Source: a virus
Virus record (IMG/VR): IMGVR_UViG_3300030328_000741
Location: 1 to 28,287 of that record
Direction: 5' to 3' (one strand)
Length of the DNA: 28,287 bases
Numbering within the stretch: position 1 is the first letter of the stretch; every line of letters starts with the position of its first letter. This document shows, piece by piece, positions 2,673-27,484 of the stretch. The position numbers and the translations under genes were made by a program. The notes beneath the pieces are model-generated. The model saw nothing but the letters and a program-made list of their open reading frames with translations. It did not search any database and was not told where the DNA came from.

Positions 2673-4391
2673 TTAAATTGTAGCCCTACGTCTTATGTTA
2701 GCTAATTGGTTTTGGCTATTAGTCATTTCATCTGTTACAACGTAAGCACGAGTAGGTTCAGGCACTACTCCACCTGTTAAGTCAAAAGATCCTGACATCA
2801 TTTGAGGTGCAGGGGTTTGTGCTGTTGGGTTTTGTGTTGATGGTGGAGTTACTCCGCCACCTCCTGCGCCTAATATTTGTTTTGCTTGTGATGCTGCACC
2901 TAATACTGCCGCTACTTGTGTAGCATAGAACAATGGAAAAGCTAGTGCTGCTGCCGGACCTGCTGCTGCCGCTGACTTTTGAGCTATGTCCAACCCCTGA
3001 ACTAAGCCTACACCTGTATTTATTGCTATCTCTGTTAATGCTGCTGCTTTTGCTGCTGACGAACCTTCCTCTAACAAGCCGCTTAAAGCTCCAACTGCCC
3101 CACCTATTGCGTGTGTAACCCTTAATTTGTTTTGTAATACTGCGTCATCACTTTTTTTGATTGAGTCATTATGAGCTAAATAACTATCTAAATACTTGTT
3201 ATTTGCTAGTTCTAGTGTATCATTAATTTCTGTAGTAAGAGCAGGCATTTTTTCAAGTACAGTCATTTCTGATTCTCTTTCTGCATTGATTTGGTTTTGC
3301 ATTTCATTAATTTCGGTCATTACTCTTTTCCGAAGTCTTAATGAAGCAATCTCTTTAGTTGTTATGGCAGTAGTAAGTTCTGCAAGTTTTTGCTCATCTA
3401 CAGCTTTATGCTTATTCAATTCCATTTCTTCTTTGAATATTCGCATTCGTTCTCTTGCTAACTCTAACTCTTTATCTGTAGTCTTTTGTTCTAGATCTAA
3501 AGCTATTGACAATGATTCTAATCTTTCTTGAGCTGACTTAGACTCATCTTCAGATAACAATCTAGCTTTTTCAATTTCTTTTCTTGTAAGAGCTTTTTGT
3601 ATCATAAACTCATTATCAGCATCTCTTAAAGCCTGAGTGTCTAAGGCTAATTGCCTTGCAGCAGCTGCTTCTCGTTCCATTTCACTACCAATACCTGACA
3701 AGTTTCCTTCTAATACTTTTGCTGCTTCTGCAAAACCTTTAAAACCTTTTGTGACTAATATTGAAACAGCTTCACCAAAAGTTGAAAATCTGTCTTTAAG
3801 AACATTGAATTTCGCACTTAAACTTGCAAGAGTTACATTTAACTTATCCATTCCTGCTTTTGTAGAAGTTACATAAGTTACTAAAGAACCAAAAGCAACC
3901 ACAAAAGCACCTAAGCCTGTTGATAATAATCCTGCTGTAAAGGATTTAAACATTAATTTTATTAATGGAATGATATTTCCAATAGATTTTTTAATGCCAT
4001 TTAAAGAAACCCCCATAACTTGAAAGTTACCAATAGTATCATTAGCAGTAACGTTTTGTTCTTTCTGAGCCTTTGTTAATTTTTTTACTTCTGAACGAGC
4101 TTCTTTTTGTTCATTGTTTAGTTCTTTTAATGCTAGTTTTTCTAATTTTAATTCTGAAGATGTTTCTTTTATTTTTTTGTTTAAGTCTCCCATACCTGCA
4201 AAGAAAGCGCCTTTTGGAATAGCATCTTGTTGGGCTTTGAGTTTTATTAAGTCTTTTTCTAAATCTGTAATGACTTTGTTTTGTATTATAATTGACTCAT
4301 TTACATTATCTAAGCTCTTGTTCCAATCTTTAGTTTCTTGTGTAACACCTTTTATGTTACTTTTTACGTTCATTACTAGTTCTTCTGCCAT
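2673..4391 (-). CDS. Tail tape-measure protein
   Basis: A 572-residue protein. An ATG at 4391 two bases past the upstream stop is preferred over the start 18 codons earlier, which would overlap the fibre gene by about 50 bases. Residues 1-115 are a charged coiled coil. Residues about 139-176 form a strongly hydrophobic segment (LLSTGLGAFVVAFG and neighbours). A long helical stretch rich in Glu, Lys and Arg runs from about 225 to 395. The C-terminal part (around 430-510) is Ala/Gly-rich and hydrophobic, followed by a Pro/Thr/Gln linker. This helix-membrane-helix pattern is that of a phage tape-measure protein, which sets tail length and helps DNA cross the membrane. At 572 residues the tail would be rather short. 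It comes after the fibre gene, which is not the usual order. Confidence 0.75.
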   Translation of the reverse strand: MAEELVMNVKSNIKGVTQETKDWNKSLDNVNESIIIQNKVITDLEKDLIKLKAQQDAIPKGAFFAGMGDLNKKIKETSSELKLEKLALKELNNEQKEARSEVKKLTKAQKEQNVTANDTIGNFQVMGVSLNGIKKSIGNIIPLIKLMFKSFTAGLLSTGLGAFVVAFGSLVTYVTSTKAGMDKLNVTLASLSAKFNVLKDRFSTFGEAVSILVTKGFKGFAEAAKVLEGNLSGIGSEMEREAAAARQLALDTQALRDADNEFMIQKALTRKEIEKARLLSEDESKSAQERLESLSIALDLEQKTTDKELELARERMRIFKEEMELNKHKAVDEQKLAELTTAITTKEIASLRLRKRVMTEINEMQNQINAERESEMTVLEKMPALTTEINDTLELANNKYLDSYLAHNDSIKKSDDAVLQNKLRVTHAIGGAVGALSGLLEEGSSAAKAAALTEIAINTGVGLVQGLDIAQKSAAAAGPAAALAFPLFYATQVAAVLGAASQAKQILGAGGGGVTPPSTQNPTAQTPAPQMMSGSFDLTGGVVPEPTRAYVVTDEMTNSQNQLANIRRRATI

Positions 4392-4393
4392 AA

Positions 4394-5299
4394 TTAAAAT
4401 GTTGTTGTGGATACTACTTCGTGTAAAGTAACTGAAGCACTCCAAAGATTATGTATGTTATTTCTGTCTTGTACATTAACTGATATTGATGGTACACCAC
4501 CTGTTGTGCTGTCTGCCATAATAGTCGTTCCGTTCTGTCCTATCTTAGCTATGTTTCTACTGAACCCTACCACAAAACTCATAGTTAGACTATTGTCTAT
4601 TTTTACTGCACCCCTGATATTTCTATAAGAGTAATTGCCTACAACTCCTGAGCTACCACCTAGCTCTAGTCTAGTAATGTAAATATCATATCCAATAATA
4701 CTATTCTTTTCTACATTAATAAAACTACCATCACCTTGAACTGTTAAATTAGTTGCTGTATTATCAATTGTAACTCCTGTTAATTCTATTACTGATGTTT
4801 TTCTTCTGCTTATAAAAGTAGCTGCGTCTGTACTATCTGAAACAGAACCAATACCACCTCCTATTGCAAATTCAGCTTGAGAAGTTGCTTTAGCATTAAC
4901 ACCTAAAACTGCTGAGTTGCTTATGCCATTAGATATTTCATTTTGATTTCCTACTATAATATTATTCCTAGAAAACCCTGCAACAGTATTGTTTTCACCC
5001 ATAATATAGGTGTTAGTAGTTCCTGTTCGTGTAACATTCCCTTCGCCACTTATATTGTTATCTAAGTTATCAAAAACGCTATTCAGCCCTGTATTATATC
5101 GAAATGTTCTACAAGTTCCTGTAGCCTTATCATAAGTGTACCCATATGCTTCACATTGTAATTGGTTTGGAGTTATTTCATTTAATGCTCCACCTGAAGC
5201 TCTATTATTATCTGTAAAGGTTACAACACCAAGAGGTGAAACTGATAAAGGCTGTACTGAAAACCCTTTTATGTCTAGTAGTGGTCTTAACTTTCCCAT
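4394..5299 (-). CDS. Tail fibre or receptor-binding protein with YadA-like repeats
   Basis: A 301-residue protein. Residues about 85-150 contain short repeats of the left-handed beta-roll type seen in trimeric autotransporter heads (NNTVAGFSRNNIIVGNQNE, ISNSAVLGVNAKATSQAEFA), where a hydrophobic pair recurs about every 14-16 residues. The rest is Asn, Thr, Ser and Gly-rich beta sequence, typical of trimeric fibres. An N-terminal segment (MGKLRPLLDIKGFSVQPLSV) may dock to the tail tip. The gene starts in the stop codon of the 892-residue tail-tip gene (TAATG) and is followed two bases later by the tape-measure gene. Host recognition is the likely job, inferred from fold resemblance and from the neighbour. 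Confidence 0.6.
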   Translation of the reverse strand: MGKLRPLLDIKGFSVQPLSVSPLGVVTFTDNNRASGGALNEITPNQLQCEAYGYTYDKATGTCRTFRYNTGLNSVFDNLDNNISGEGNVTRTGTTNTYIMGENNTVAGFSRNNIIVGNQNEISNGISNSAVLGVNAKATSQAEFAIGGGIGSVSDSTDAATFISRRKTSVIELTGVTIDNTATNLTVQGDGSFINVEKNSIIGYDIYITRLELGGSSGVVGNYSYRNIRGAVKIDNSLTMSFVVGFSRNIAKIGQNGTTIMADSTTGGVPSISVNVQDRNNIHNLWSASVTLHEVVSTTTF

Positions 5300-9479: not shown

Positions 9480-10025
9480 TTATTTTTGTTTTGTAAATGT
9501 TGTTATGTAATTTTGTATGTCTAACTTGAGTATATCTAGTATGTCTTTTTTAAGTTTTGTGTATTCTATTCCTAAAGGTTTTTGGAAAAAGCTAAGGCTT
9601 TTGATTCCATCTCTTTTTATTTTCCTGCTAATTAAATAAGCAAATCCTGATATGTATTGACCTGTATTCTTAGATCTACCTCGCCCAAGTCCTTTAGGTT
9701 TAATGCCTTTTCTTTTAATCCACTTAGATAGTATATCAATAGGTGGTCCCTTAGTAGTATAACTGTATGAGCTTTTTCTAGTCTTTCCTTTTGTGTCTGT
9801 AAATGATCTTTTGACTTTAGTTCCTGAAACTCCTTCATCTAAATAAGTTCCATAATCATCCATATAGAATTTAGTTTCAAAGCCTTGTGCTGTTGGTTCT
9901 ACTTTAAATCTAATTGTCTTTTCTAAAGCAGTATTGCCCTTTTGATTACGAAGACTTTTTTTAGCTTCACCTACAACTTTTGCTCCAAAGTTGTTTAGAT
10001 ACCTTTCAAGACTAGATGCTTTCAT
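9480..10025 (-). CDS. HK97 gp10-like head-tail or minor tail protein
   Basis: A 181-residue, strongly basic protein. The N-terminus is an amphipathic helix (SLERYLNNFGAKVVGEAKKS), followed by beta strands and a YLDEGVSGTKV element around 60-70, then a Lys/Arg-rich middle and a C-terminal helix rich in Ile, Leu and Lys. The pattern 'helix, K-x-x-T, strand, YxDxG-G' resembles the HK97 gp10 family of head-tail joining or tail-completion proteins. It overlaps the upstream gene by one base (TAATG) and abuts the downstream tail gene, so it belongs to the tail operon. Confidence is moderate because the family is divergent. Confidence 0.6.
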   Translation of the reverse strand: MKASSLERYLNNFGAKVVGEAKKSLRNQKGNTALEKTIRFKVEPTAQGFETKFYMDDYGTYLDEGVSGTKVKRSFTDTKGKTRKSSYSYTTKGPPIDILSKWIKRKGIKPKGLGRGRSKNTGQYISGFAYLISRKIKRDGIKSLSFFQKPLGIEYTKLKKDILDILKLDIQNYITTFTKQK

Positions 10026-10474
10026 TATACAAGTCCTGCAAAGACTTCTACTTGAACATCAGTTGTTGCTGATGGTCTTACTTCTACAGTAACTAAATCT
10101 TCTAATGTAGGAAAATTAGGTGTAGTGTCTGCTTCAGCAATCATTACTTCTTCAGCTTGAAATAATACATGAGAACCACCTGCTCTTACAGTTACTTGAT
10201 AGTTTGTAGCTGCTGTTACAAAAGCAACTTTCATATCTTGGTCTGTACTTAAATTGGTAATTCTAAAGTATTTACAATTTTCAACATCTAAAGCTCCATC
10301 TGCTCCGTATGGTGTTGAATTAAATACTGCTACTGTTGTAGTTTGGGAATGTGTGCAAGTTAATATTCTTTCAAATACATCTACTATATTTGAAGTTGTG
10401 ATTGAATTACTTGAACCTCGTAAGGAGTTATTCAATGTAACGCTCTCTGTAATTGTTGTTACTAAGTCTGCCAT
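10025..10474 (-). CDS. Small beta-rich virion protein
   Basis: A 149-residue protein with Thr, Val and Ala-rich beta sequence (SQTTTVAVFNSTPYG, YQVTVRAGGSHVLFQAEEV, VTVEVRPSATTDVQVEVF). It has no membrane segment or catalytic motif. It sits between the putative tail-completion gene (10542-11105) and the gp10-like gene, with a TAATG overlap into the latter. A head-tail connector, tail-tube or decoration role would all fit the composition. I do not recognise the family, and the call rests on beta-rich composition and the structural neighbourhood. Confidence 0.5.
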   Translation of the reverse strand: MADLVTTITESVTLNNSLRGSSNSITTSNIVDVFERILTCTHSQTTTVAVFNSTPYGADGALDVENCKYFRITNLSTDQDMKVAFVTAATNYQVTVRAGGSHVLFQAEEVMIAEADTTPNFPTLEDLVTVEVRPSATTDVQVEVFAGLV

Positions 10475-10541: not shown

Positions 10542-11105
10542 TTAGTACCCTGCACCCCTATCTCTTAAAGGAATGTTACAAGTTTGGAAGTCATTCTGTA
10601 CTAATATTCCTATTTGAAAAACGTGACCACAACAAAGATTGTCAAACCTTTCTTGGAATGGTTCTATTGTAAATTGGTCTTGTGTAAAATAAAAAGGCTC
10701 ATTAATATCATTTACGCCACCTAAAGATTGTAATGTTGAATGTCTAAATATGCCAATAATATCTGTTGCAATTTGTAGTGTTTCATTAAATACGTCTTGT
10801 TCATTGCTTAAAGTTTTTACTAGCTTTGTGAAGTTATCATTGTTGGTCATTAATTTTCCTCTGTTGTCTGTCCAATCAGACTTTTCAGCAACCATATCCA
10901 TAACAAAGATTTGAAAGTTGTATGTGAGTTGACTATCACCTGTAACTACATTAACAGGATTGATGTGCATTAAAGGGAATTTGGTGTTCTTTTCCAAGTC
11001 TACATCCCAAATGTCACCTACAGATGTAGTATTTATTTGGTTGTGAAATTCACCAACCCTTAAAAGAGTATTGATTACATTATTATAAGTTTTGTTACCT
11101 ACCAT
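10542..11105 (-). CDS. Tail terminator or completion-like protein
   Basis: A 187-residue protein, starting at an ATG overlapped by the end of the frameshifted chaperone reading frame. The N-terminus (NNVINTLLRVGEFHNQINTT) is a helix, followed by FPLMHINPVNVV and LTYNFQIFVMDMVAEKSDW, an alpha/beta pattern similar to tail terminator proteins that cap the tail tube. The C-terminus is DRGAGY. In my recollection this combination is common in Bacteroidota phages near the tail genes. The position, just after the tail-assembly chaperone and before gp10-like, is consistent with a tail-completion role. The assignment is inferred, and no catalytic residues are expected. Confidence 0.5.
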   Translation of the reverse strand: MVGNKTYNNVINTLLRVGEFHNQINTTSVGDIWDVDLEKNTKFPLMHINPVNVVTGDSQLTYNFQIFVMDMVAEKSDWTDNRGKLMTNNDNFTKLVKTLSNEQDVFNETLQIATDIIGIFRHSTLQSLGGVNDINEPFYFTQDQFTIEPFQERFDNLCCGHVFQIGILVQNDFQTCNIPLRDRGAGY

Positions 11106-11873
11106 TTAATTTTGTTTTTTGACTTTCATTTAAGTCTGTTTCATAACTAAGCCAAGTCAAGCACTCTAAAAGCCCTAGATTTGTTATGCTTTCTAATTTA
11201 CTTATGTCTTCATTACAGAGTCTGTGCATTACTCCAAACCAACCCCATTTCTCACTTACACTTTCACTGACGATTGAGTCTTCGTTTCCTTCAGCTTCTG
11301 AATCAAATATGATTGAGAAGTCTCCGACAATTCGTTCACGAAACGATAAAAAAAAACCAATGCACTTTGCACTTGCTCTGCTGACATCTTTTTCATCTTT
11401 TCAGCTCGGATAGTTAAATCACCCCCATAGGCTTTGATAGAATAGACTTCATTTTCTTTTTCTACAATTGGCCTATAAAGTATTGCCATAACTTCAGGCA
11501 AGTGATTTTCAATTCCTATTTTTATAAACGTTTCCAAATCTGCATATTCACCTAAAGTGATATCATCTAAATTAGGATGAAACCCATACTCAACCCCATC
11601 TATTTCAATTATCTTTGTTAAAGAACTGTCTTGCTTCTGTTGTAGCTCTGATACTTTTTCCATAATAACAGCTACATCTTTTAAACTAAGCTGACTGATT
11701 AATTGCTTAGGTATGTCTGACATAGCAGCTATTGTTTCTTCTGCTTCCTTCGCTTTACTTCCTGTCTGAAATTCAATTAATTTTAACCACTTATCAAGAG
11801 TTACATCTGACCAACTATTTATAAGCTTGAACTCCTTTGTCTTTCCTTCCTGCTGAATTTTGACTTTCATCAT
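11095..11873 (-). CDS. Tail assembly chaperone, -1 frameshift product
   Basis: Reading in the zero frame from 11873 to the slippery tract and then one base back gives a 259-residue protein. The zero-frame codons at the site are GTT TTT TTT TAT; after slippage on T-TTT-TTT the frame becomes TTA TCG TTT CGT, and I traced it codon by codon without a stop for 84 codons to TAA at 11097-11095. The added part is acidic, then contains WGWFGVMHRLCNEDISKLES and LGLLECLTWLSYET, a sequence style I associate with the second half of gpG-T-like chaperones. The long frame ends 8 bases inside the next gene, which otherwise would follow a 150-base non-coding gap. This fills the gap and makes the frameshift convincing. 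Confidence 0.8.
11256..11873 (-). CDS. Tail assembly chaperone, short (in-frame) product
   Basis: A 205-residue, mostly helical protein (SWSDVTLDKWLKLIEFQTGS near the N-terminus), ending 30 residues after a run of nine T residues on the coding strand. It is the in-frame product of a gene that also appears to make a longer frameshifted form. Lambda gpG and its many analogues have this design: the short form binds the tape-measure protein and the long form recruits tail-tube protein. The last residues read in this frame (ELSETSQSYLIQKLKETKTQ) are not conserved-looking, as expected if much of the function lies upstream. Neighbours are the terminase genes on one side and tail genes on the other. 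Confidence 0.75.
   Translation of the reverse strand: MMKVKIQQEGKTKEFKLINSWSDVTLDKWLKLIEFQTGSKAKEAEETIAAMSDIPKQLISQLSLKDVAVIMEKVSELQQKQDSSLTKIIEIDGVEYGFHPNLDDITLGEYADLETFIKIGIENHLPEVMAILYRPIVEKENEVYSIKAYGGDLTIRAEKMKKMSAEQVQSALVFFYRFVNELSETSQSYLIQKLKETKTQSSVKV
11348..11356 (-). promoter_or_regulatory. Slippery heptanucleotide tract for -1 frameshifting
   Basis: Nine consecutive T residues on the coding strand contain the slippery heptamer T-TTT-TTT in correct phase (codons 174 and 175 of the chaperone gene). Both tRNAs could keep perfect pairing after slipping back one base. I did not identify a convincing downstream stem-loop or pseudoknot by eye; homopolymer slips often need none. Confidence 0.75.
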
Positions 11874-11950: not shown

Positions 11951-11981
11951 AAGGGGGTTGTCTTTAAGGCACCCCCTTTTT
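11951..11981 (+). terminator. Strong hairpin with T5 tail on the plus strand
   Basis: AAGGGGGT (11951-11958) pairs perfectly with ACCCCCTT (11971-11978), with three further inner pairs and a short loop, and is followed on the plus strand by TTTTT (11977-11981). It sits in the 106-base gap between the large terminase stop and the tail chaperone start. In the minus-strand transcript the stem has an A5 run before it and only two U residues after it, so it would be a poor terminator in the direction of the genes, though it could protect or process the late mRNA. The T tail overlaps the terminase stop codon. Confidence 0.6.
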
Positions 11982-13290
11982 ATTGAACAAAATACTTTCC
12001 AAAGTTTCCATCAATTTCATAATACATTCTCATTGCTAAAGCATCTGAATAGTCAGGAGATCTACCTATTATGTCTTTGATAGTTTCTTTAGGAACTATT
12101 TGTAGTTTATTATCTTTGTCTGCGTCTTTCATTCTTACTTGCTCACACTCTTCAATAATATTATTTTTTACATTTATATCAGGACAACTTATTCCTATCT
12201 GAGCTTTGTTAATTAATTCAGCCAACTTATAATAACACTGAGTCTTTAGGTTCTGATAGTTTTCTTTTTTTAATGGTCTTGCATTATTAGTAAATCCTTG
12301 ACACCTGAGAAAATCTTTAGCCCCACCCCCAACTCCATCTTCATCTATAATAATATTGCGTAATGGTACACCGTTAGTCTGTTGTAATTGCCTTACTTCG
12401 TCTACAACGTCATTTACAGCCGATTTAAGCAACGTTCGTATCTTTTTAATATGTAACCCTTCCCAATACATAATAACTGTCTTATCAGCCCCAAAACGTG
12501 CTACATCACAACTTATGTATTTTTGTCCTTCTATTCCTTTTTGAGTAAACATATTGATTATAGCATCATATTCAATTAAATTATCTTTACTTGCATCATA
12601 TTCCCAATTCCCAAATAGTAACCTTTGTTTACTTAGTTCATCTAATGTTTCTAACTGAGTCTTGTAATACTTAGAAATAAATTCATTATCATCTACAAGG
12701 CTCTGAATAAACTTTCTATATGGTTTTTGTTTCCCTTCTTTTGATGGTCTGTAGTATTGAGTGTACACCCAATTCTTAGCAGGATTACAGGTCATTAGCA
12801 TCTTTGGAATTAATCCATAGTCATCTAACTTGTATCTCATTCTTGAAGCTACAATATTTTTTGCTTTCTCTGTTATCTGATTTGCTTCATCTATAAAAGC
12901 CCCTGTTATTTCCAATGAACCTAAGTTGTCAAAGTTCCTGTCACTTGGGTACAAGAATAAATCCTTTAACATTATTTCTGATTTATTATAAAACTTTATG
13001 ATGTTAGATCCTCCATTGAAATTATAATGTTTGTTAGCTTTCAAACCCCACGCTTCACATACTTCTAAGAAAGTATTGAGAGTTGTTTTTTTAAGACTAT
13101 CCAATTTTGACCTGCCCATTAAATACCTAGTCTTTGGATATTTTAATGACATAAGAATTAACCAACTACAACCCACCCAAGACTTTCCACCACCTGCTGC
13201 TCCACCAAATAATACTTCCGTAGTAGTTTTATCAAATAGATATTCTATTGCTTCTGCTTGAGTACTTGTAAATTCTGTATCAATATTCAA
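11980..13290 (-). CDS. terL: Terminase large subunit
   Basis: A 436-residue ATPase-nuclease that drives DNA packaging into the prohead. The N-terminal ATPase has a Walker A loop GGAAGGGKS (29-37), a Walker B AFIDEA (131-136) with catalytic Glu135 and a coupling motif MTCNPAKNW (166-174). The C-terminal RNase H-like nuclease has its acidic residues at D262 (SCDVARFGADKT), D316 (NIIIDEDGVGGG) and D416 (SPDYSDALAM). All key residues are present, and the length is usual for the family. It overlaps the small terminase gene by 11 bases. The gene downstream is the tail chaperone instead of the more usual portal. Identification is secure. Confidence 0.95.
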   Translation of the reverse strand: MNIDTEFTSTQAEAIEYLFDKTTTEVLFGGAAGGGKSWVGCSWLILMSLKYPKTRYLMGRSKLDSLKKTTLNTFLEVCEAWGLKANKHYNFNGGSNIIKFYNKSEIMLKDLFLYPSDRNFDNLGSLEITGAFIDEANQITEKAKNIVASRMRYKLDDYGLIPKMLMTCNPAKNWVYTQYYRPSKEGKQKPYRKFIQSLVDDNEFISKYYKTQLETLDELSKQRLLFGNWEYDASKDNLIEYDAIINMFTQKGIEGQKYISCDVARFGADKTVIMYWEGLHIKKIRTLLKSAVNDVVDEVRQLQQTNGVPLRNIIIDEDGVGGGAKDFLRCQGFTNNARPLKKENYQNLKTQCYYKLAELINKAQIGISCPDINVKNNIIEECEQVRMKDADKDNKLQIVPKETIKDIIGRSPDYSDALAMRMYYEIDGNFGKYFVQ

Positions 13291-13633
13291 CTCCCTTGAT
13301 ATTTACATTAATTTTTATAGGTTCATCACCTGAGCTAAGGTCAAGTTCTGATCTTTCTACATACCCTCGTCTTTTTCCTTTAGTCTTTAAAAAGAATATT
13401 GTAGCTGAAGTATTTCCATCTCCAATCTGTTTATGTAACTGACTTTCACCAAAGTCTAGTGCTATATTTTCTATGTCTTTTACAGCCTTAGCAAAGTCCT
13501 CGTCTTCTTTTAGCCATTTATAATATGTTGAACGTGGAACATCTGCTGCTTTACAGGCTACCGTTACCACCCCTAAACTATTCTCTAATGCTTTTAAAAT
13601 GCTTTCCTTTTTTATATGTCTACTTTTGTCCAT
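13280..13633 (-). CDS. terS: Terminase small subunit (HTH)
   Basis: A 117-residue protein with an N-terminal helix-turn-helix (ESILKALENSLGVVTVACKA, ADVPRSTYYKWLKEDEDFAK, residues about 9-45), then a helical oligomerisation segment (ENIALDFGESQLHKQIGDGN) and a short C-terminal tail that ends in the terminase large subunit gene. Such proteins recognise the packaging start on phage DNA and hand it to the large subunit. The TSATIFFLKTKGKRRGYVER part is typical of phage small terminases. It overlaps terL by 11 bases and the upstream glycosyltransferase gene by 14 bases, so the three are probably cotranslated. Confidence 0.85.
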   Translation of the reverse strand: MDKSRHIKKESILKALENSLGVVTVACKAADVPRSTYYKWLKEDEDFAKAVKDIENIALDFGESQLHKQIGDGNTSATIFFLKTKGKRRGYVERSELDLSSGDEPIKINVNIKGVEY

Positions 13634-25444: not shown

Positions 25445-27484
25445 TTAATTGTAATATCCGTTATTTTCCATTCGTTGTGGTGCTATTGCCACTAGCTTAT
25501 CGTTTCGTTTTGCTGTAAATCCTTCAGAAACAGCCTTAGTGTAGCCTATTAGCTCAGCATCTTTAATAGGTTGCTTTGCATTTCTTAGTGAAGTCTTGTA
25601 GATTTTACGCAAGAAAAAATGTCTGCATTGAGGTCCACCTTTGTATAAAAATATGTTATATGGTTCACCTTCAGGATATTCTGAAGTTGGGTGTCCAAAT
25701 CCAAAATTAACTTTATTACTATCTACATTTACCAAGTCCTCTTTACGATATACTTTTTTAGCTGCTACCATTAATTCACAAAACTCTCTGCTTGTTCCTG
25801 ATTTATTTACTAAGAAATTATCTGTAGCATAAACATATCTTACTTTGTAATAATCACTATAAGATTTATTGACACCGTCCTGACTACTTCTTGCATTTGG
25901 TCTTGCTGTTACAGTTTCTGCTAGTTCAATTCTTTTATTAGCTTCTTTGTTTAGTTCCTTTTCAAAGTCAAAATCATTATGCTCACCATCTACAACTTCT
26001 TCTTCTATTAGTTCCCAATCATCAGACATATCTTCACCAACTTCACTTATCCATTTTTCAAGTTCTGTTTTATTGCAACATACTTTTTTAGATAGTTCTG
26101 TAGCTTCTGAATGGTCCTTACAAGCCATATAAGCCGTTTTGCCTTCATATTCGTGTTCGTGATACCCTTTACACCCTAAAGTCTTTGCGTGAGCTTCAGC
26201 GTCTTCTATTGTGCTAAAAACAGGCTGACCATCTATCATTCCCACTTTGCTAAGTTTTACATCTTGTTCAACAGTATCTTCATTATCTAAAGGTTCAAGC
26301 CCAAGTTCTTCTCTGATTTCGTCTGTAGTCATTACTTCTCTGATAGTCTTAGAATCAAATTGTACTGTAATAGGTTTAAGCTGTACAAAGTTTACAGGTA
26401 AATCCATATTGTTTACTTGAAATATCTTCCGAAGGCTTTTAACTAATTGATCTTGGAATGGTTTAATAACAGTATTTAAGTAGAAATTTGCCGCATTTAT
26501 GATCTCGTCTGTATTTGAAGAAAATCCGTTAGCAGAATCTATGCCCATAAGCGTCTTAGAGGTTACTCTGTGCCCACTTAAGATGTTTGAGGTTAGTAGC
26601 TCTTGGAGTGCTAAATATTGTTTATCTAAGTCGCTAGAATTGATTGGTGTAATTTCAGGAGTCCTTGTCTTATCGTCACTAAAAGTTAATACAAACTTGC
26701 CTGAATTATTTTCTGAGCAGAATTTTTCTGTTAAACTTTGTTCTATTTGGAATCGTTCTTCTTGAGTAGGAACGCCATTTGCAAAGCTAATCATAAAAGA
26801 TCCTGCAAATCCATTTGAGATATTATTTAAATGGAACTCAGATACACGACCATCAATAAGTGCCCAATTATTACAACTCACGTAATCAGGTGTAAAGTAT
26901 GAGTTCATATTAGGGCTATAAAGACCTGAATACATTATTTGATTTGCAGAAGTTCTATCATTAACATTAAAAGCAGGAACATAATAAGGTTTGTTCTGTC
27001 TAGTGTTTGACCAATCTGCTGAGATATAATACCCTTTAGTCTTGCCAAATTCATCAGGTCTTGCACATCTTAGCTTAGAAACATCAATGTGGTAGATTTC
27101 AGCGATTTGAGTTCTGTCCTTTGACCATACTATGTTAAGTGCAAATGCTCCTTGTAATTTAAAGTCAAAAGAAAGTTTCTTAATAACTTCGTGTAGGCTT
27201 TCATTTCCATTAGCCCTATTCATAAAGTTTTGTAGCTTAATACTTGCTTCTGTAACCTCTTCGTCTTCTATAATAAGAGCTTCACCTGCTATCATTTCAG
27301 ATGTAGAATTAATAATGGCAGCAGATATGCTACTTGAATAATAAAGATCTATCAAAAACTGTGGATACAGGTTTTTCCATTCACCATTAGCATCTCCGTA
27401 CTCAATCCAATCTTTTCCACGCACCTCTGTAATTACAGGAGCTGTACTCGTTTCTAAATTTATATTAATGATATTGTCTTTCAT
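25445..27484 (-). CDS. Portal protein with C-terminal extension
   Basis: A 679-residue protein. Residues 1-400 form the portal body: WIEYGDANGEWKNLYPQFLI (26-45), FKLQGAFALNIVWSKDRTQI (108-127) and LLTSNILSGHRVTSKTLMGI (297-316) lead into an acidic helical crown (DEIREELGLEPLD, 388-400). It forms the 12-subunit ring through which DNA enters. Beyond residue 410 is an unusual extension: a Cys/His-rich piece (about 425-470, with C438, H442, H444, C455, H458, C469 and C470), an acidic linker, and a C-terminal domain (545-630, REFCELMVAAKKVYRKEDLV, GGPQCRHFFLRKIY) like the end of Mu gpF-type minor head proteins. This suggests a fusion of portal and minor head functions. Confidence 0.8.
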   Translation of the reverse strand: MKDNIININLETSTAPVITEVRGKDWIEYGDANGEWKNLYPQFLIDLYYSSSISAAIINSTSEMIAGEALIIEDEEVTEASIKLQNFMNRANGNESLHEVIKKLSFDFKLQGAFALNIVWSKDRTQIAEIYHIDVSKLRCARPDEFGKTKGYYISADWSNTRQNKPYYVPAFNVNDRTSANQIMYSGLYSPNMNSYFTPDYVSCNNWALIDGRVSEFHLNNISNGFAGSFMISFANGVPTQEERFQIEQSLTEKFCSENNSGKFVLTFSDDKTRTPEITPINSSDLDKQYLALQELLTSNILSGHRVTSKTLMGIDSANGFSSNTDEIINAANFYLNTVIKPFQDQLVKSLRKIFQVNNMDLPVNFVQLKPITVQFDSKTIREVMTTDEIREELGLEPLDNEDTVEQDVKLSKVGMIDGQPVFSTIEDAEAHAKTLGCKGYHEHEYEGKTAYMACKDHSEATELSKKVCCNKTELEKWISEVGEDMSDDWELIEEEVVDGEHNDFDFEKELNKEANKRIELAETVTARPNARSSQDGVNKSYSDYYKVRYVYATDNFLVNKSGTSREFCELMVAAKKVYRKEDLVNVDSNKVNFGFGHPTSEYPEGEPYNIFLYKGGPQCRHFFLRKIYKTSLRNAKQPIKDAELIGYTKAVSEGFTAKRNDKLVAIAPQRMENNGYYN

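Follow-up and report, generated by a model that had tools for sequence, protein, structure and literature searches.

The window analysed here, the whole 28,287-base stretch of IMG/VR record IMGVR_UViG_3300030328_000741 (positions 1 to 28,287), carries a gene of the gpG/gpGT kind in which a 205-residue zero-frame protein and a longer -1 fusion appear to be made from the same start, with the frame change located at a run of nine T residues (T9). The -1 fusion itself is almost certainly real, as judged from comparison of the sequence with its relatives, and we consider it somewhat more probable than an even chance that the frame change occurs at least partly by slippage of RNA polymerase on the T9 run. 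The features of the locus are collected in Table 1.

Table 1. Features of the putative tail-chaperone locus, in window coordinates
Feature	Positions	Strand	Description
TerL	11980-13290	-	terminase large subunit; directly upstream of the zero-frame ORF
Zero-frame ORF	11256-11873	-	205 aa, gpG-like product, putative tail assembly chaperone; stop 11258-11256
T9 slip run	11348-11356	-	zero frame GTT TTT TTT TAT, T_TTT_TTT in phase
-1 extension	11095-11349	-	84 codons (11349-11098) plus TAA (11097-11095); gpT-like domain
Next gene	10542-11105	-	187 aa; start overlaps the end of the extension; conserved adjoining the extension
149-aa neighbour	10025-10474	-	predicted beta protein, pLDDT 94

The original prediction had described nine T's in phase followed by an 84-codon -1 extension that fills the space before the next gene, and the sequence bears this out: the position of the run and its reading were verified, and the extension is open throughout. 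Exactly 150 bases (11255-11106) separate the zero-frame stop from the next ATG (11105), and the TAA of the extension is preceded by 8 bases of the next gene. The AlphaFold model of the zero-frame product has a pLDDT of 83, and an alignment of relatives places a KWGWFG...ECLTWLSYETD motif within the extension.

A protein search with the zero-frame product returned 80 viral loci and 2 loci from genome bins; all of those that span the site carry T9 or T10, and their complete extensions are 80-86 codons long. A second search took its motifs from both the extension and the upstream core, so that loci were not picked by their slip site. Both motifs were found in 226 of 240 sequences, with the extension in the -1 frame in all 226 loci, and among the 170 distinct two-motif sequences the run is T9 in 158 and T10 in 12, never shorter. 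The divergent branch around the Nonlabens phages P12024S and P12024L, whose members are mostly ~25-33% identical to P12024S, has an FFLSFRER...KWGWY extension in common with the window family; here too the extension lies in the -1 frame (62/62 loci), and the run is T9 in 61 cases and T10 in one, never 7 or 8. Taking both branches together, the run is nine or ten T's long in 204 of 204 distinct sequences, and the heptamer T_TTT_TTT is in phase in every sequence examined. In the P12024 branch (L243-L301), the zero frame often continues to 212-245 codons, such that nearly the whole extension is read in two frames. Because a coding-strand T9 or longer is so rare in other ORFs of related contigs (once in 860 ORFs, 577 kb, two further copies of the same gene excepted), the run is not a product of chance. 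The lone other coding-strand T9 lies on the + strand of L139, in an ORF starting at position 73 that is outside this gene family.

Conservation of the extension in relatives had been set as a test of the original prediction, and the -1 frame proved open in every relative, published isolates included, as expected for programmed recoding that joins the extension to the upstream protein. Beyond the zero-frame stop, pairwise differences affect position 3 of the -1 codons in 41% of cases, position 1 in 21%, and position 2 in 16%, and silent single changes in the extension stand to replacements as 2:1. By these measures, purifying selection maintains the extension in its -1 frame. Chance does not explain the open frame either: in 3,300 trials, base shuffling never left the extension free of stops. 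Homopolymers are error-prone, and a frame break of this kind could in principle be an indel in the run, introduced by sequencing or by decay of the gene, as with the one-base break that sets Flavobacterium phage 6H apart from its sisters; however, the same break recurs across hundreds of independent contigs as well as isolate genomes, and selection acts on the -1 frame, which leaves this explanation a negligible probability.

How the extension is entered is constrained by its start codons. In 156 of 167 window-family sequences there is no ATG, GTG, or TTG in the -1 frame before the conserved KW motif, so reading can reach the extension only by way of the zero frame; in the +1 frame, 154 of the 167 meet a stop within 8 codons. 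A short gene in its own right, translated by re-initiation or from its own start as annotated in P12024S_39, is thus a highly improbable reading of the extension. The ORF annotated in P12024S and P12024L does begin at an ATG overlapping the upstream stop, but it leaves out the conserved LSFRER part, and -1-frame conservation reaches into the stretch ahead of any start. In both records, the second half of the -1 extension appears as a separate hypothetical gene (P12024S_39 and P12024L_41; L083:6507-6674 and L084:6507-6674), and PHROGs splits the two halves of the protein into two families, phrog_32199 and phrog_38404.

Further evidence on the fusion comes from relatives in which no frame change is needed. 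When the folded zero-frame product was compared with viral models, it matched the P12024S protein and one from Flavobacterium phage 6H. An uninterrupted ORF of 260-302 codons is found in the sister phages of 6H, laban6-1, Cellulophaga phage Ingeline, Bacteroides phage BT-TP2, Polaribacter phage Leef, and Microcystis phages, with at most T6 at the junction. In profile comparisons, the zero-frame product, as far as the FF at the slip site, corresponds to the first two thirds of the single ORF (E = 1.9e-10), and a later stretch corresponds to the extension (E = 6e-5, probability 65%), the two matches being collinear. The Duneviridae homologs (Flavobacterium FPSV-F7, laban6-1, Cellulophaga Ingeline; phrog_25418) have the same N- and C-terminal parts in the same order as the gene studied here but differ in encoding them as one ORF of 293-301 residues with just T6 at the junction. 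Because Duneviridae and others encode both parts as a single ORF, the fusion that would arise from the -1 shift very probably corresponds to an ordinary protein of these relatives and is thus a real product. Phage 6H itself (KC959568; L305:10352-10927) carries a one-base frame break relative to sisters such as FPSV-F7, likely a sequencing error or a mutation; it was considered as an alternative slip site and dropped, its sisters having a continuous ORF.

A tail-chaperone role for the gene is likely, and the two-product arrangement argues for it, as does the listing of the P12024 phages as siphoviruses (PMC4771703). Of the gpG/gpGT tail-chaperone arrangement proposed originally, the recoding and the conserved extension stand; the function is a matter of probability, in that neither families nor folds give a strong match and the gene, which comes right after TerL, has no demonstrable place between those for tail tube and tape measure. 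Specifically, the zero-frame product matches PF10109 below the cut-off (E = 0.13) and the phrog_166 tail protein weakly (E = 0.01), and Foldseek returned weak matches to two annotated chaperones (E = 0.005 and 0.06); sequence and fold searches of the PDB gave no relative. A weak match to the terminase small subunit family phrog_24579 (E = 7e-4) counts against a simple chaperone assignment; a better terminase small-subunit candidate lies just upstream of TerL (13280-13633). The gene directly follows TerL both here and in the P12024 phages. In the window, the tape-measure candidate (2673-4445), itself matched at just E = 0.98, is several genes away; in Cellulophaga phage Ingeline, the homolog lies three genes before the annotated tape measure. 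The 149-residue neighbour was folded in search of a tail-tube protein; its beta fold was predicted with confidence but does not clearly match a tail tube. This neighbour occurs in the window lineage and was not found in the P12024 branch loci. Elsewhere in the window, the portal protein (25445-27484, - strand) has an unusual C-terminal addition, with a match to DUF3721 around residues 423-459.

Two-product tail chaperones are a textbook case of ribosomal frameshifting, and the original prediction considered the ribosome alone. A ribosomal slip on T_TTT_TTT is possible, but RNA polymerase on the T9 run may act instead or as well. The locus shows what is expected of either machine: an X_XXY_YYZ heptamer in zero-frame phase, as for ribosomal frameshifting, and an A/T run of about nine or more that is conserved in length (204/204 distinct sequences), as for transcriptional slippage. 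Because every T9, in any phase, contains T_TTT_TTT, neither the phase nor the length of the run by itself excludes the ribosome. In many bacterial genomes, selection against A/T runs sets in at a length of nine, and where homologs keep a run of nine unchanged in length, this is held to indicate programmed transcriptional slippage (PMC1088944).

The codon usage at the slip site is more informative. If the second Phe codon mutates from TTT to TTC, neither reading changes: the zero frame still encodes Phe, and the -1 frame still encodes Leu (TTA/TTG becoming CTA/CTG). The ribosome is then left with U_UUU_UUC, one of the motifs that work efficiently in E. coli and one that IS elements use (PMC4066793). 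This TTT to TTC change is absent wherever the run is otherwise unchanged: the Phe174 codon is TTT in 167/167 sequences, and Phe175 is TTC in 12/167, in all of which the run has been lengthened upstream to T10 (CTT TTT TTT TTC). At the control residue Phe98, by comparison, there are 95 TTT and 67 TTC codons, and the same tree requires at least 27 switches between them. A second variant has its run displaced by one base (AGG, CGG, or ATG, then TTT TTT TTT G); this run is again exactly nine T's long, and the hydrophobic residue before it is no longer required. Since U_UUU_UUC is also efficient for the ribosome in E. coli, yet is avoided, the excess constraint suggests a requirement for a homopolymer, and the pattern as a whole suggests selection on run length, a hallmark of RNA-polymerase slippage.

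A purely ribosomal -1 frameshift on T_TTT_TTT, as in lambda gpG/gpGT, nevertheless has a substantial chance of being the full explanation, albeit one short of even. According to this explanation, T9 is kept because U_UUU_UUU gives the required ratio and the neighbouring residues add T's; the flanking T's are indeed partly fixed by the protein, which has V, L, I, or F before the run and Y or W after it. The heptamer is in phase throughout, U_UUU_UUY motifs are among the better ones in E. coli (PMC4066793), and the gene resembles the gpG/gpGT chaperones, in which, as in the tail-chaperone frameshifts known, it is the ribosome that shifts, in some cases without a stimulator (PMC5009743). Weighing against an exclusively ribosomal shift are the doubly silent TTT to TTC change, which occurs only in runs lengthened to T10, the fact that the run is never down to 7 or 8, and the outcome of the searches for stimulators. 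A conserved downstream stimulatory structure was tested for across relatives and not found (mean folding z of -0.34 downstream vs. -0.12 for the control), an upstream Shine-Dalgarno-like motif is present in just 8 of 170 sequences, with none conserved, and upstream structure shows no excess over synonymous shuffles among relatives. The window also has a hairpin (TGCA-AAG-TGCA) directly before the run; as a stimulator of slippage it was rejected, because it shows no such excess across relatives. On balance, the sequence data slightly favour transcriptional slippage, alone or together with ribosomal slippage, over ribosomal slippage alone.

No sequence relation to lambda gpG/gpGT was detected; the lambda gene lies between the tail-tube and tape-measure genes, whereas the present one follows TerL, and the lambda slip heptamer is G_GGA_AAG, as opposed to T9. 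What the two appear to have in common is a pair of products from one start, with a -1 C-terminal domain, and a low-level shift apparently without need of a stimulator (PMC5009743). Published counterparts are P12024S genes 38+39 and P12024L genes 40+41, in which a homologous gene adjoining TerL has the identical T9 in the same phase and a homologous -1 extension; they differ in being only 27% identical and in being annotated as two unrelated hypothetical proteins, the recoding passing unremarked in the records. Programmed transcriptional slippage in Thermus dnaX, Shigella mxiE, and IS elements likewise involves about nine A's or T's conserved in length, and slippage on a U run can yield a longer fusion product (PMC1088944, PMC5009743). 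Unlike the present gene, these are not phage tail genes, and slippage has been shown experimentally in several of them, whereas here we infer it.

In the mechanism we propose, most transcripts and ribosomes would yield the 205-residue protein, and a fraction would shift to the -1 frame at T9 to give a 259-residue fusion, the 84-residue C-terminal part of which is a separate conserved domain. RNA polymerase would slip on the nine T's, at a level that we likewise infer; one extra U would put ribosomes in the -1 frame, and one U lost would put them in the +1 frame, where they would meet a stop within a few codons. Ribosomal -1 slippage on U_UUU_UUU could add to that of the polymerase. By analogy, the short form would coat the tape measure and the long form would recruit tail-tube subunits.

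Two-product chaperones are well known; the variant here lies in the lineage-wide T9, the single-ORF relatives, and the signs of selection on run length. Searches of a literature collection that leaves out most subscription journals yielded no account of transcriptional slippage for a tail chaperone. One Pseudooceanicola metagenome-assembled genome includes two different phage contigs that carry the gene (L081, L082); because this binning is probably wrong, we keep Bacteroidota as the presumed host of the lineage. The public records (P12024S/L, phrog_32199, phrog_38404) divide what would be one protein into two unrelated hypotheticals. The chances are about even that, in a large phage lineage probably infecting Bacteroidota, slippage of RNA polymerase on T9 determines the ratio of the two tail-chaperone products, in place of a lambda-like ribosomal frameshift, while the Duneviridae relatives of this lineage carry the fused, one-ORF form. 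A lineage with an invariant run of nine T's beside relatives without the frame break would offer a clean natural test of whether transcription can set the same product ratio.
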